From positions 1 through 60,409 of the forward strand of contig JAGVXA010000002.1 of NCBI GenBank assembly GCA_018304025.1: 60,409 nt of DNA, in the 5' to 3' direction. Under the pieces are notes generated by a model, which was given only the letters and a program-made list of their open reading frames with translations, was not told the DNA's origin and made no database searches. Below, one piece after another: positions 2,393 through 57,970 of this stretch. Made by a program: the position numbers and the translations under genes. This DNA comes from Candidatus Pacearchaeota archaeon (GTDB lineage Archaea > Nanobdellota > Nanobdellia > Pacearchaeales > GW2011-AR1). How positions within the stretch are numbered: position 1 is the first letter of the stretch; each line of letters starts with the position of its first letter.

Positions 2393-2626
2393 TTGCAGGA
2401 TATGACAGAGCAAATGTTCATGCTTCCGGCGCAATGCAAGAAATGCGGGGCTATATTTGACCTGCGTTACGATCTTGAGGATTACGACGGAGATTTGCAG
2501 ATATTTTCTAAAGACGTGATGGAGAGAGAATCTCTTTGCTGGCATTGCAGGAAAAATGAATTAACTGAAGAGAGCGAGGAGAATGAGAGTGATGAGATTG
2601 GGGAGTTTTTGCTGGAGTTTGAATAA
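2393..2626 (+). CDS. Small zinc-ribbon-like protein
   Basis: 77 aa with CKKC...CWHC pairs. Confidence 0.55.
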   Translation: MQDMTEQMFMLPAQCKKCGAIFDLRYDLEDYDGDLQIFSKDVMERESLCWHCRKNELTEESEENESDEIGEFLLEFE

Positions 2627-2648
2627 TAACTATTAAAAAATATTTGTG

Positions 2649-2922
2649 TTCGGCACGCATTGGACTCACTAAATTAATCTTTTCGGTGCGCAAATTGGAC
2701 TTGCCCGTTCTTGCGGCTGGCAAGTCTTATTGTTAATAGCTCACTTCGTTCGCTGATGCGCACCGAATAATTGCTTCGCTGACAATCGCGAGTCTTATCT
2801 GTAAAATTCGCTGTTGATGCGTCGCAATTGGACGCACAATTGCGTTCGGCTGTGCGTCTTATCTGTAAAATTCGCTCCGCGAATTTGGCGACGCATCAAC
2901 TCCGCGAATTTGGCGTGCCGAA
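2649..2922. repeat. Nested multi-hairpin intergenic element (outer TTCGGCACGC/GCGTGCCGAA, two further elements inserted)
   Basis: Outer inverted repeat 2649-2658/2913-2922; nested TTTTCGGTGCGC..GCGCACCGAA (2680-2767) and GTTGATGCGTCGC..GCGACGCATCAAC (2813-2900). Confidence 0.85.
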
Positions 2923-3058
2923 AGAGAGAATAATTTTAGAGAAAAGATTTAGTCGGGATTAATTAGTTTGGTAAAATCCTGAAGGGATGTGAGATAATTT
3001 ATTTGCGTATTGGAAGATTTAACGAATAATTTATTAACTAATTCTTTCAGCAGAATAG

Positions 3059-3871
3059 ATGAACGAATTGATTTCAGCGCTGATTATCGCGGTTGTGCAG
3101 GGCTTGACAGAGTGGATGCCGATTAGTTCTTCGGGGCATTTGATTTTGTTTGAGAAATTACTTGATTATTCGGGGGGACTGATGTTTGACGTCGCGCTGC
3201 ATTTTGGAACTTTAATGGCTGTGTTTGTTTATTTTGGCGGAGATATTGTTGATATTGTGAAGGATTTTACTTCTTTAAACTGGAGCTCTGAGAATGGGCG
3301 CTTGGGCTTGCTGATTTTGATAGCGACTTTACCGGCTGTTATCGTGGGTTTTTTATTTAAGAATATTTTTTTGAATGCGTTTGATTCTTTGGGAATTGTT
3401 GCATTGGGTTTTGGGATTACCGGCTTGATTCTTTTGATTGCTTCTTTTCAGCGGCGGATTAAAAGAAAGAAATTAGACGGCAGGACGCTTGAAGTTGGGG
3501 AAAAGAGATTTGGCTATTTTGATGGATTTCTCGTCGGGTGCGCGCAGATTTTGTCTTTGTTTCCAGGGATTTCGCGTTCGGGTGCGACGCTTTCTTCCGG
3601 GCTTTTGCTTGGGCTGGATGAAAAATCAGCTATGAAATTTTCTTTTTTGATGTCTATTCCAATTACATTTGGGGCGAATATTTTGGTTATTGGAAATAAT
3701 ACTCTGCCTTCTAATCTAATTTGGGCTACGCTTGTCAGTTTTGGCGTTGGCTTGCTTGCTATTCATCTGCTGTTCAAACATATTTTGACTTCCCGGCGCA
3801 ATTTGAAGTGGTTTGCGATTTACGCGCTTTTATTGGCAGGGATTTTGGGGATTTGGGTTGGGATGAGTTAG
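3059..3871 (+). CDS. uppP: Undecaprenyl-diphosphatase-like (BacA/UppP family)
   Basis: QGLTEWMPISSSGHLIL and FPGISRSGATLSSGLLLGL motifs; polytopic membrane protein. Confidence 0.93.
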   Translation: MNELISALIIAVVQGLTEWMPISSSGHLILFEKLLDYSGGLMFDVALHFGTLMAVFVYFGGDIVDIVKDFTSLNWSSENGRLGLLILIATLPAVIVGFLFKNIFLNAFDSLGIVALGFGITGLILLIASFQRRIKRKKLDGRTLEVGEKRFGYFDGFLVGCAQILSLFPGISRSGATLSSGLLLGLDEKSAMKFSFLMSIPITFGANILVIGNNTLPSNLIWATLVSFGVGLLAIHLLFKHILTSRRNLKWFAIYALLLAGILGIWVGMS

Positions 3872-8991: not shown

Positions 8992-9158
8992 CTCGGCACG
9001 CAATTGCTGTTTGACAATTTTGTGCGGCTGTCAAACAGTTATTTATTTACAAAATTCCTTCGTTTTCGGCGCGAATTGTCGTGACAATTCGCTATCGGTT
9101 TGAAAATTTGCTTCGCAAATTTTCTGCGCGCCGAAAATAATTTTGTTGGCGTGCCGAA
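8992..9158. repeat. Multi-hairpin element (92 nt host) with a 75-nt related element nested at 9063-9137
   Basis: Host halves 8992-9062 and 9138-9158 match the uninterrupted copy 57842-57933. Confidence 0.88.
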
Positions 9159-9162
9159 TTAA

Positions 9163-9531
9163 CTAAGAAAGATTTTCTGGATTGGAGAAATAAGAATCAA
9201 CGTAATTTGTTAATCCTTCTGGAGACTGCCTTTCTGTGAGATTTGGGTCTCGGGTTATTTTTCCCCGGTAAACATTTAATAAATTTGTCCTTAGAGGGTT
9301 TGGAGTGTAAGAATCAAATGAAAAAAGAGTGTATTTTATTTTTGTTCCCTTTACTGCGCCCGAAGTGCGAATTCTTACTTCGTCTACTGGGGCAAAAATT
9401 TCCTGTACTTTCTGCTCGATTTTGTCAGATTGCCTGGTTTCGTTGATGATAACAAAATTCATATGATGCACTATCGGGTCTGATTCTGAACGGAATTCGT
9501 ATCTTATTTGCCTTTGGATTTTTTTTGCCAT
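9163..9531 (-). CDS. Conserved-looking hypothetical protein
   Basis: 122-aa ORF, good codon structure, upstream of metG on the same strand. Confidence 0.6.
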   Translation of the reverse strand: MAKKIQRQIRYEFRSESDPIVHHMNFVIINETRQSDKIEQKVQEIFAPVDEVRIRTSGAVKGTKIKYTLFSFDSYTPNPLRTNLLNVYRGKITRDPNLTERQSPEGLTNYVDSYFSNPENLS

Positions 9532-13512: not shown

Positions 13513-13679
13513 TTCGGCACGCGATTGCTGTTTGACAATTTTGTGCGGCTGTCAAACAGTTATTTATTTACAAAATTACTTCGTTTTCGGCGCGAATTGT
13601 CGTGACAATTCGTTATCGGTTTGAAAATTTGCTTCGCAAATTTTCTGCGCGCCGAAAATAATTTTGTTGGCGTGCCTAA
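13513..13679. repeat. Multi-hairpin element (92 nt host) with a 75-nt element nested at 13584-13658
   Basis: Host halves 13513-13583 and 13659-13679 rejoin to match 57842-57933. Confidence 0.88.
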
Positions 13680-15560: not shown

Positions 15561-15646
15561 TTTTCTGGCCGAATTGGACGCCAATTGCGGAGGCTGGCGT
15601 CTTATTTGTTTGAAAATTCACTTCGTGAATTTTCCGCGCGCCGAAT
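15561..15646. repeat. Multi-hairpin element, hybrid outer arms
   Basis: GACGCCA..TGGCGTC, TTATTTG, GAAAATTCACTTCGTGAATTTTC, CGCGCGCCGAA. Confidence 0.75.
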
Positions 15647-15797: not shown

Positions 15798-15892
15798 TGA
15801 TCCCGCTGGGATTTGAACCCAGGACCTCTGCCTTTCTGATAATTTTTATGTAATATCAGAGCAGCGCTCTAACCAGGCTGAGCTACGGAATC
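15798..15892 (-). tRNA. tRNA-Ile(GAT) with a ~20-nt intron at 37/38
   Basis: GATTCCG/CGGGATC acceptor, D-arm GCTC..GAGC, anticodon arm CTGCT-CTGATA[intron 15853..15834]A-GGCAG, T-loop TTCAAAT; CTGA/TCAG pairing across the exon-intron junction. Confidence 0.88.
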
Positions 15893-22172: not shown

Positions 22173-22217
22173 TTTCTGGCCGCAATTGCTGTTTGACAAT
22201 TTGTGTGGCTGTCAAAC
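22173..22217. repeat. Truncated copy of the multi-hairpin element
   Basis: TTTCTGGCCGCAATTGCTGTTTGACAATTTGTGTGGCTGTCAAAC, directly abutting the stop codon of the minus-strand MFS gene. Confidence 0.7.
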
Positions 22218-23606
22218 TTAACCAAGAAGCGTTTTTAACAAATTAATTTCAGAATGAACTGATTTTATGGGATGAAGCAAACTGACTTTCAAATCAGGAA
22301 GGGGGCGGACTTTTCTTTTGTCTTTTAAGCGGGGGAGGAAGATTATTCCGACGAGAAGCCTTGCGGCTGCCGCGAGCGCGAAGACAAATAAAAATTTGTT
22401 TGTGAACGCCAAATATTTTAGAAGTATTCCGCCGATAATTGAGCCGATGAAAACTCCTATTCCGGTGAATAGATTATTATAGGCGACGCAGATTCCCCGA
22501 CGCTGCTGGGAGACTGAAGCGTATGTAAAATTAGTTGATGAAATTAAAAGAGCTGCATTGCCGATGCCTGGAATTATCTGGGCGAAGACTAATGCAATAG
22601 GATTTTTTATGAAGAGCCACGGAATCGGGGAGAGAAAGAAAAATAAATTCGCGATGTAAAAAAGCCTGACGTTGCCGTATTTGTCTGAGAATTTTCCGGC
22701 GAGCGGAGCGAAAATAAGATAGAAGACTGTTCCGCTTATTGACACTATGATGAAAGTTGTATAGGAGAATTCTAATTCCTGAAGCATGTAGACTGCGAAG
22801 AACGGGCTTGCTATCATGACAGCTATGTTGAAAAATAAATTGTAGGTTGCGAACTTGCCGTAGTTGTCAAATGTTTTTATGAAATTCCAGAGCGTGAAGT
22901 AGGATTTTTTGTTTACTTTGAATTTTGGAGAATATTCTTTTTTGAATATCTTGTAAGAAACGAATCTAAATGTGAACGCAAGAGCGAATAGGATTGCGAA
23001 TCCCAAGAAAACGAATCCTTTTGTTTTGAATGTGTCGAGGAGAAATGCGCCGAAAAGCATTGCTGCGAGGCCTAAAAGAGTTATTATTCTGTCTCTTATT
23101 CCGAGATATTTTCCCCTGTCTTTTTCAGGTATCAAGTCGCCGAGCCAGGAAAACCAGGCAGGGTATGCGCAGCTGCCGAGCGCGAGAAGAATTGTGTAGA
23201 GAATTATCAGGATGTAAGGGGCGAAATTTTGAAAATAGCCTTTCCAAAATAAAATTCCGAGGAGCGCGATTGGAAACCAGACCAACGCTTCTAAAAGAAC
23301 AAATTCCACGACTATTCTTTTTCTTGATTCGTGAGACATGAGCTTGCTGCCGAAGAGCTGGGAAATTGGAGAAGCGAGCCCGGATAATGAACTGAGAATT
23401 CCGATTTGGAAAGGAGTTGATTTCAGAGCGAGAGCAAAGGGAGTTATAAATTGGGAGCCTAAGTTAGTGGAGATGCTTGAAGCTATCCCTTCATTGATAC
23501 TTTGCTTGAGGGCTTTTTGCTTTGAACGGATGATTCTATCTGTCGGGCCGTCAACATCTTTCTGCACTCTTTTTATATTTGTGAGTTTATTGTAAGTTAA
23601 TTCCAC
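22218..23606 (-). CDS. MFS transporter
   Basis: 462 aa, ~12 TM, LGDLIPEKDRGKYLGIRDR, GKFSDKYGNVRLFY. Confidence 0.88.
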   Translation of the reverse strand: MELTYNKLTNIKRVQKDVDGPTDRIIRSKQKALKQSINEGIASSISTNLGSQFITPFALALKSTPFQIGILSSLSGLASPISQLFGSKLMSHESRKRIVVEFVLLEALVWFPIALLGILFWKGYFQNFAPYILIILYTILLALGSCAYPAWFSWLGDLIPEKDRGKYLGIRDRIITLLGLAAMLFGAFLLDTFKTKGFVFLGFAILFALAFTFRFVSYKIFKKEYSPKFKVNKKSYFTLWNFIKTFDNYGKFATYNLFFNIAVMIASPFFAVYMLQELEFSYTTFIIVSISGTVFYLIFAPLAGKFSDKYGNVRLFYIANLFFFLSPIPWLFIKNPIALVFAQIIPGIGNAALLISSTNFTYASVSQQRRGICVAYNNLFTGIGVFIGSIIGGILLKYLAFTNKFLFVFALAAAARLLVGIIFLPRLKDKRKVRPLPDLKVSLLHPIKSVHSEINLLKTLLG

Positions 23607-31651: not shown

Positions 31652-31814
31652 TTTTCTGGCCGCAATTGGATTTTGCTTCGCAAATTCTTATCGGTAAAAA
31701 TTGCTTTTGATGCGTCGCAATTGGACTCGCTGACAATCGCGAGTCTTATCGGTAAAATTCGCTCCGCGAATTTGGCGACGCATCAACTCCTCTCCGTGAA
31801 TTTAGCGTGCCGAA
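31652..31814. repeat. Multi-hairpin element with an 80-nt TTGATGCGTCGC..GCGACGCATCAA element nested at 31707-31786
   Basis: Outer TTTTCTGGCC... and GCGTGCCGAA; nested copy nearly identical to 42733-42812. Confidence 0.8.
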
Positions 31815-31915
31815 TTAATTTTATACTTGGCGGTTTGTTAGTTTAGATTCGCAGGTAAATATTAATTGGATAGGTTGTTGTTTACAAGTTAGCAGGGTTT
31901 GTTCAGACAAAAGAA

Positions 31916-42509: not shown

Positions 42510-42875
42510 ATGCGTCGCAATTGGACTCGCTAAATTAATCTTCTCGGTGCGCAAATTGGACTTGCCTGTTCTTGCGGCTGGCAAGTCTTATCGTTAACAG
42601 CTCACTCCGTTCGCTGGTGCGCACCGAGTAATTGCTTCGCTGACAATTGCGAGTCTTATCTGTAAAATTTGCTCTTGATGCGTCGCAATTGGACTCGCTG
42701 ACAATTGCGAGTCTTATCTGTAAAATTTGCTCTTGATGCGTCGCAATTGGACTCGCTGACAATTGCGAGTCTTATCTGTAAAATTCGCTCCGCGAATTTA
42801 GCGACGCATCAATTTAGCGACGCATCAATTTAGCGACGCACAGAATCTATTTCGCAAATTTTCCGCGTCGTTGAA
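42510..42875. repeat. Deeply nested multi-hairpin element array
   Basis: Three ATGCGTCGCAATTGGACTCGC left arms (two of them TTG-preceded) and three balanced (TTTA)GCGACGCA(TCAA) right arms, plus CTCGGTGCGC..GCGCACCGAG (42543-42628) inserted in the first hairpin. Confidence 0.88.
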
Positions 42876-47574: not shown

Positions 47575-47836
47575 TGTGATAATATCGAGAAATTAGGAGA
47601 GAGATAATTATCCGAGTAGGATTTTGGGAAAGAGATAGTTAGTGCGATAGAATCGAGAAATTAGCCTTCGGCTAATTTCCGAGAATTTTGTGATAACAAG
47701 AGAGATTTTTATAGGAGAATAATTAGTGTGATAATATCGAGAAATTAGCCTTCGGCTAATTTCCGAGAATTTTGAATATTTAATTGAATTGATTAAATTA
47801 TACCATATCATTATACATAGAAATTTCCGAGAATTC
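47575..47836. repeat. Second palindromic repeat family (GATAATATCGAGAAATTAGCCTTCGGCTAATTTCCGAGAATTTTGTGATAA)
   Basis: Full palindromes around 47653-47680 and 47738-47770; orphan left arm ~47580 and orphan right arm ~47822. Confidence 0.75.
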
Positions 47837-56044: not shown

Positions 56045-56290
56045 AGATAATTAATGTGATAATATCGAGAAATTAGCCTTCGGCTAATTTCCGAATATTT
56101 ATTGATAACGAGAGAGATTTGGGGGAATAATTATCTGGATAGAATTGAGAAATTAGCCTTTTTCGGCGCGCATTTGGACGCACAATTGCGTTCGGCTGTG
56201 CGTCTTATCATTAACCAAATTCACTTCGTGAATTTGGAGAGCGCGCCGAGCAATTTCCGAGAATTTTGTGATAATGAGAGAGATTTTGAG
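56045..56290. repeat. Second palindromic repeat family, one copy interrupted by a multi-hairpin element (56161-56250)
   Basis: Intact AGAAATTAGCCTTCGGCTAATTTCC at 56068-56092; interrupted AGAAATTAGCCTT[...]GCAATTTCCGAGAATTTTGTGATAA. Confidence 0.8.
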
Positions 56291-57841: not shown

Positions 57842-57933
57842 TTCGGCACGCATTTGCTGTTTGACAATTTTGTGCGGCTGTCAAACAGTTATTTATTTAC
57901 AAAATTACTTCGTAATTTTGTTGGCGTGCCGAA
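57842..57933. repeat. Uninterrupted multi-hairpin element (92 nt, reference empty site)
   Basis: TTCGGCACGC-CTGTTTGACA..TGTCAAACAG-TTATTTATTT-ACAAAATTACTTCGTAATTTTGT-TGGCGTGCCGAA. Confidence 0.9.
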
Positions 57934-57970
57934 TTAATTTTCTGCGTCGCTGAAAAATAAAAAGAAGAAA

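Follow-up and report, generated by a model that had tools for sequence, protein, structure and literature searches.

The DNA analysed here, referred to as the window, is a stretch of 60,409 nucleotides that forms one contig (C6) of a 992-kb genome bin of a Candidatus Pacearchaeota archaeon (G000; 29 contigs, 88% complete), and the genes of this genome include those for ribosomal protein L15e and an XPG/fen1-type nuclease. At positions 13513-13679 lies a composite of two structured repeats, one inside a hairpin of the other. Host and insert belong to the same family, termed E, of which we curated 58 copies on 11 contigs, at about 52 loci. The features of the window that bear on this composite are as follows.

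13513 to 13583, forward strand: left part of the host E, with outer stem, hairpin 1, linker, and the 5' arm and loop of hairpin 2; two mismatches to 57842-57912
13584 to 13658, forward strand: inserted short-type E of 75 nt with the ends TTTTCGGCGCG/CGCGCCGAAAA, found alone on contigs C7, C13 and C21; score 100.6 with covariance model R1
13659 to 13679, forward strand: right part of the host E, with the 3' arm of hairpin 2 and the outer stem; one mismatch to 57913-57933
57842 to 57933, forward strand: empty host element of 92 nt, an unsplit copy of the focal host
8993 to 9158, forward strand: another filled copy of this composite, in which the insert occupies 9063-9137; 98% identity over 166 nt, flanks unrelated to those of 13513-13679
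22173 to 22239, forward strand: decayed relic of the focal host type; 92% identity to the host over 38 nt, weak model match
15562 to 15646, forward strand: standalone E with a TATATAAA-like motif upstream

A split element and its unsplit counterpart

The earlier note on this DNA described the locus as a host that is split by 75 nt at 13584-13658, occurs unsplit at 57842-57933, and whose halves rejoin exactly. The split and its unsplit counterpart are borne out, whereas the rejoining is not exact: in the alignment that the note had proposed as a check, the two host parts (71 + 21 nt) agree with 57842-57933 at 89 of 92 positions, two of the three mismatches being close to the 5' end and the third close to the 3' end. 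The junction itself is flanked by 59 identical nucleotides on the left and 18 on the right, that is 77 consecutive positions. It is ambiguous by 1 nt (two placements, CTTCG|T) and is located at the 3' boundary between the CTTCG loop and the stem of hairpin 2 (CAAAATTA-CTTCG^TAATTTTG), so that insertion into a hairpin loop stands only with the qualification that the site is not mid-loop. Beyond this ambiguity the focal insert has no flanking repeat, in agreement with the observation in the note that no target duplication is obvious.

Chance as the source of the split is ruled out by independent copies, namely the second filled copy and the insert that is present on its own on three other contigs. 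A second empty host of the focal type was found at C15:9525, and when the joined flanks of all 58 E copies were scanned against all the DNA available, 57891-57934 was recovered as a 44-nt empty-site match for both filled copies, with one mismatch each. On comparison of these sequences, the best reading of the focal site, and a supported one, is that one element was inserted into the hairpin loop of another. It is most likely that both filled copies derive from one nesting event, the 167-nt product of which later moved as a unit, rather than from two insertions.

The reverse order of events, in which the split form came first and 57842-57933 arose by exact loss of the insert, is not excluded by strain data, for want of an available conspecific genome that carries the element. 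This reading fits poorly because the two empty copies keep intact stems that differ from each other and are even compensated (TTA-CTTCG-TAA and TTG-CTTCG-CAA), while the filled copy at 8993-9158 has lost one stem pair. In addition, hairpin 2 is normally unsplit in the E family, the insert is dispersed separately, and a hairpin family unrelated to E provides another clean filled/empty pair (see below); on these grounds the claim of the note that the locus records an insertion rather than a deletion is supported, and we consider a deletion very improbable. It could also be argued that the nested repeats are assembly errors, since the source bin is fragmented and repeat-rich. Against this, two filled copies with different flanks reside inside one 60-kb contig, many distinct nestings are found on many contigs, and compensatory changes are not made by assembly errors, which leaves this explanation hardly credible.

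Architecture of the E family and nesting in hairpin loops

The E elements are units of about 70-95 nt in which an outer stem of about 10-11 bp (consensus TTTCGGCRCGC/GCGYGCCGAAA) encloses two hairpins in the order hairpin 1, a linker that is often TTATC, and hairpin 2, whose loop is usually CTTCG or CTCCG. They start with TTTCGG, TCTCGG or TTGATGCG, and the stems of hairpin 1 can be read by eye (GACGCAC/GTGCGTC, GACTTGCC/GGCAAGTC and CTGTTTGAC/GTCAAACAG). The 58 copies were curated from the matches of two covariance models to the genome, R1 with 74 matches (E-value up to 1) and R2 with 64 (E-value up to 0.1), counts that include second-strand and partial echoes. In the alignment of 53 copies, 92.8% of the cells are paired and two-sided changes occur at 24 of the 26 pairs; none of 500 shuffles reached as high a pairing, and sliding the partners destroys it. 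These figures lean upward, because the copies share ancestry and their alignment was fitted to the model. A search against the Rfam curated covariance models gave no non-tRNA match at the gathering threshold, with the focal and D regions (D being a second hairpin family, introduced below) free of matches at E-values up to 1 and one sub-threshold match elsewhere; E as an RNA family already known to Rfam is thus ruled out. One short-type E (L100:3996-4065, which is C13:43996-44065 of the bin) is located within an open frame of 123 codons that reads through the element. Palindromic elements within genes also occur in Rickettsia, with which this case may be compared.

The focal composite is one of at least seven combinations of host, insert and site, with nesting up to three deep and all in loops, although structure-based detection favours insertions in loops over those in stems. 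The further composites of the window, together with an empty D hairpin, are listed here.

2649 to 2923, forward strand: double composite (sequence and model matches) in which one host E carries an E in the loop of hairpin 1 (2681-2768) and another in the loop of hairpin 2 (2815-2898)
31655 to 31818, forward strand: degenerate host E with a GATGCG-type E (31708-31785) in the loop of hairpin 2
42510 to 42840, forward strand: composite three deep in hairpin 2 loops (sequence and model matches), inner copy at 42734-42811; one hairpin 1 loop holds an additional E (42542-42629)
47655 to 47683, forward strand: empty D hairpin from a pattern search; further empty ones at 47739-47767 and 56067-56095
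56161 to 56251, forward strand: E in the loop of a D-family hairpin whose left and right arms are of different subtypes

Besides the focal case, in which a short-type E occupies hairpin 2 of its host, the combinations comprise GATGCG-type E in the hairpin 2 loops of many hosts (e.g., 2815, 31708 and 42734, and on C1, C4, C7, C13 and C21), E of the TTTCGGCACGC type within hairpin 2 of a GATGC-type host (C21:6544), E of the CTCGGTGCG type within hairpin 1 loops (2681, 42542, C15 and C20), and E in D-family hairpins (56161, C13 and C21). Hairpin 2 loops also carry a different hairpin (TCGTTCGATATTCTTCGAACGA; C3, C15 and C25), and hairpin 1 loops another repeat (CTTACCAACTTTCCCCTTGCGATAC; C1, C13 and C21). 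For most nested copies the joined-flank scan recovers long empty matches that span the junction, the best of 40-44 nt with one to three mismatches; the joined flanks of the insert at 2815, for instance, match an empty site over 41 nt with one mismatch. Controls with swapped flanks gave shorter or worse matches, and flank pairing lies about 3.7 SD above the swapped-flank control. The word "targeted", which the earlier note had applied to the insertion, remains an inference from this repeated pattern of loop nestings, without direct demonstration. In a separate observation, a structured repeat (CTTACCAACTTTCCCCTTGCGATACTGCTCATGGCTG) without an Rfam family above threshold is found in hairpin 1 loops of E at L098:14396-14523, L102:16203-16347 and L089:18512-18640.

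The second clean pair involves D, a hairpin family unrelated to E (GAGAAATTARYCTTCGRYTAATTTCCGAG) that has a conserved 5' arm and is found on E-bearing and E-free contigs alike. Its host GAGAAATTGCTCTT|CGAGCAATTTCCGAG is empty at C13:70375-70418 and filled by E at C21:56034 and C13:26126, and the joined flanks of C21:56034 give a 44-nt match, with a single mismatch, to the empty site at C13:70375. A pattern search located the empty D hairpin GAGAAATTGCTCTTCGAGCAATTTCCGAG at C2:22135, C13:3541, C13:70216 and C13:70383. Not every host is so simple. At 56161 and C21:36203 the two arms of the D host belong to different subtypes, the right arm being common to both loci, which as far as the sequences can tell indicates that recombination or template switching took place at the loop, and some of the nested copies look like recombinants.

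These chimeric hosts provide the opening for the main rival to transposition, in which template switching or gene conversion between related hairpins would produce the nests without any transposase: on stalling at a loop, the polymerase would move over to another copy, replicate the insert nested there, and return. The two chimeric D hosts, whose left arms are of one subtype and whose right arm is common to both, are what such jumps would leave, and the same insert types do recur in hosts that share arm sequence. Template switching alone, however, does not account for how an element first came to enter a hairpin unrelated to it, as E did with D, nor for the spread to about 52 loci with unrelated flanks, and we regard this rival as unlikely.

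Strand, flanks and distribution of the elements

All E copies of a given contig are on one strand, and it is the strand that is G-rich at four-fold degenerate sites (all 58 copies, at about 52 loci on 11 contigs). GC skew was measured separately in genes of the plus strand, in genes of the minus strand, and in non-ORF DNA with the elements masked. The D hairpins are located on the same G-rich strand in all of 31 matches with asymmetric arms, contigs without E included, and in four of four further ones (35/35 altogether). If each contig is counted as a single event, 17 agree, which is expected by chance at about 8e-6 (2^-17). Genes run in the direction of the G-rich strand by 205 to 126. Gene direction was considered as the cause of E orientation and rejected, as neighbouring genes run both ways and the skew is seen separately in plus and minus genes. 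By the usual convention, the G-rich strand is the leading strand; this is assumed here, the origin being unmapped and the direction of replication taken from the skew. Archaeal skews can be complex (PMC12999951). In the IS200/IS605 family, transposition proceeds via single strands and orientation follows replication (PMC5371812, PMC6006769), and double-strand transposases that contact the sliding clamp are likewise known to insert with a bias in orientation relative to replication (PMC5371812). Strand-coherent copying would be expected of fork events under template switching as well.

The flanks offer no equally simple rule. GATGCG-type inserts in CTCCG or CTTCG loops often have CT, CTC or CTT on both sides, and since these are not uniform and none is present at the focal insert, no target-site duplication of fixed length is claimed. 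Inspection by eye of the flanks of all 58 E copies revealed no consistent pair of AG or ACT direct repeats, a trait of GC clusters. Just upstream of 18 E copies, e.g., before 15562 and 57842, there is a TATATAAA-like motif, which in 17 of the 18 starts 13-16 nt before the element, a nearly fixed spacing that is independent of the direction of the neighbouring gene; at C13:14307 an E is located between such a motif and another E. It is possible that this TATA-like motif belongs to the mobile unit, that it is favoured as a target, or that it serves as a promoter, and the three have not been separated.

The outer stem of about 10-11 bp meets the terminal inverted repeat criterion of MITEs as short non-coding units, and an alternative is that E copies are MITEs of the ordinary kind, mobilised by a double-strand (DDE) transposase with a preference for palindromes, like IS1397 and ISKpn1 at REP loops, and oriented via the replication clamp. 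Such a route would suit the inverted-repeat ends, the occasional flanking repeats of 2-3 nt at GATGCG-type inserts and the reported clamp-linked orientation (PMC5371812), and REP-targeting insertion sequences exist in five families (PMC1525189). Yet there is no consistent target duplication, no parental insertion sequence was noticed (DDE families were outside the search), and the orientation is perfect although ends and targets are symmetric. We judge this route quite unlikely.

Within the bin, E is located on C1, C3, C4, C6, C7, C13, C15, C19, C20, C21 and C25, which amount to about 384 kb. It is nearly absent from C2, C5, C8-C12, C14, C16-C18, C22-C24 and C26-C29, more than half of the bin, where it was found, as far as searched, only as relics or weak matches (C10 and C22); D is present on several of these contigs. 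Whether this reflects regional confinement or a mixed bin is unexplained. A mixed bin is disfavoured but not excluded, for D keeps the strand rule there and an E relic is present on C10. Among relatives, no match was detected with the covariance model in 38 other genomes, nine of them of the same genus, and a DNA search over 55 relatives gave only one weak match of 37 nt. At the fen1 site of a same-genus relative (G008) E is missing, and the neighbouring gene follows after about 36 nt as against 218 nt here. Pattern searches for E in GTDB genomes and IMG/VR found nothing, although the records of the window's own genome may be excluded there. As E was not detected in the sequenced sisters, it either spread in this lineage after the split from them or was lost in them.

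Routes of spread and known systems

The architecture with its covariation, the filled/empty pairs, the nesting to three deep and the one-strand rule are shown, within the limits of what sequence comparison can establish. On this basis we propose, with a probability of roughly 0.6, that E elements are non-autonomous, non-coding mobile elements whose targets are hairpin loops and whose insertion probably proceeds through single-stranded DNA during replication, by an enzyme that is unknown. E would spread into the hairpin loops of other structured repeats, E itself included, and composites would subsequently be copied as units. The single-strand route is inferred because the ends of the element and its targets are near-palindromic, yet the orientation of the insert is fixed relative to both host and chromosome. 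Insertion would take place, most simply, on the folded template strand at the replication fork, where hairpin loops would remain single-stranded and the element would fold on the same strand. Points against the single-strand model are the mismatched left and right arms of some nested copies and the near-absence of E from more than half of the bin, for which the model offers no explanation.

No Y1 transposase (PF01797) was matched in the bin, itself 88% complete, while controls were positive in five genomes; the search covered only the Y1_Tnp, RVT_1 and TnpB zinc domains, and other transposase, HuH and recombinase families were outside its scope. The catalyst is therefore unknown and template switching remains a serious rival, the more so as the only reverse transcriptase found resembles the enzyme of a diversity-generating retroelement. 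This gene, on C11, and that of the adjoining protein occupy L153:1477-2358 and 2559-3368, and the C-terminus of the protein resembles a peptide encoded next to the reverse transcriptase (variable-repeat-like), so that the locus looks, by sequence, like a diversity-generating retroelement; the reverse transcriptase was for this reason set aside as the mobiliser of E. A TnpB-type match was weak and below the cut-off, and its ORF looks like a primase small subunit. If insertion through single strands is correct, the catalyst might belong to an enzyme family that was not searched for, be a host repair or replication nuclease, or be encoded in the missing ~12% of the genome. A bolder possibility, which we consider doubtful, is that hairpins free of any transposase copy from loop to loop on the folded fork template, with multi-level nests and a strand rule common to unrelated families.

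For bacteria and mitochondria it has long been asked by what means palindromic repeats that encode nothing are able to spread. The genome studied here records the order of events, that is, which hairpin was present first, what was inserted later and at which nucleotide, along with a strand rule without exception, and therefore a single-stranded, replication-coupled route becomes directly testable. It also follows that larger structured modules can arise by hairpins accreting inside hairpins.

Among known systems, the closest in kind to E are mitochondrial GC clusters and REP-targeting insertion sequences (PMC4478555, PMC1525189), and in the parts of the sources consulted neither is shown to combine mutual loop nesting of non-coding elements with a strict strand rule. 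The GC clusters of yeast mitochondrial DNA and the hairpin repeats of fungal and sponge mitochondria are likewise short, non-coding, mobile, palindromic, mostly intergenic and constrained in their stems; GC clusters also fuse and are reshuffled into bigger composites, and at a given site one strain may carry the stand-alone form and another the merged one (PMC4478555, PMC2800124). They differ in residing in an organelle rather than an archaeon and in their AG or ACT flanking repeats, and no replication-strand rule was encountered in the parts consulted (PMC4478555, PMC2800124). E in turn has a two-hairpin architecture and loop insertion positions defined to about 1 nt. IS1397, ISKpn1, IS621 and other REP-targeting elements are specific to palindromic repeats and leave an interrupted REP that can be perfectly reconstructed, but they are protein-coding, whereas E is non-coding and its target and insert are the same kind of element (PMC1525189). 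IS200/IS605, its derivatives and the REP/RAYT systems share with our reading of E the use of folded single strands and an orientation set by replication; they depend on a Y1 HuH transposase, none of which was found here, and have subterminal hairpins instead of a closed outer stem (PMC6006769, PMC5371812). REPs themselves (a hairpin of 20-65 nt with a 5' GT[AG]G foot) are shorter than the 70-95 nt of E, which starts without such a tag, and the REP criterion is not met. Prokaryotic MITEs such as ERIC/RU-1, Correia/NEMIS, RUP and the Sulfolobus MITEs are similarly short, non-coding, mostly intergenic and present in many copies with inverted-repeat ends, but typically have TA termini and target duplications, and neither loop-in-loop nesting nor a strict strand rule was encountered in the parts of the sources consulted (PMC2229807, PMC10969869). 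A literature search on archaeal or nested palindromic repeats found nothing closer than these four groups.

Apart from E, tRNA matches of 95-150 nt in length were noticed at 15798-15892 of the window and at L102:5896-6039 and 9120-9269, and their length suggests introns or insertions in the tRNA genes.
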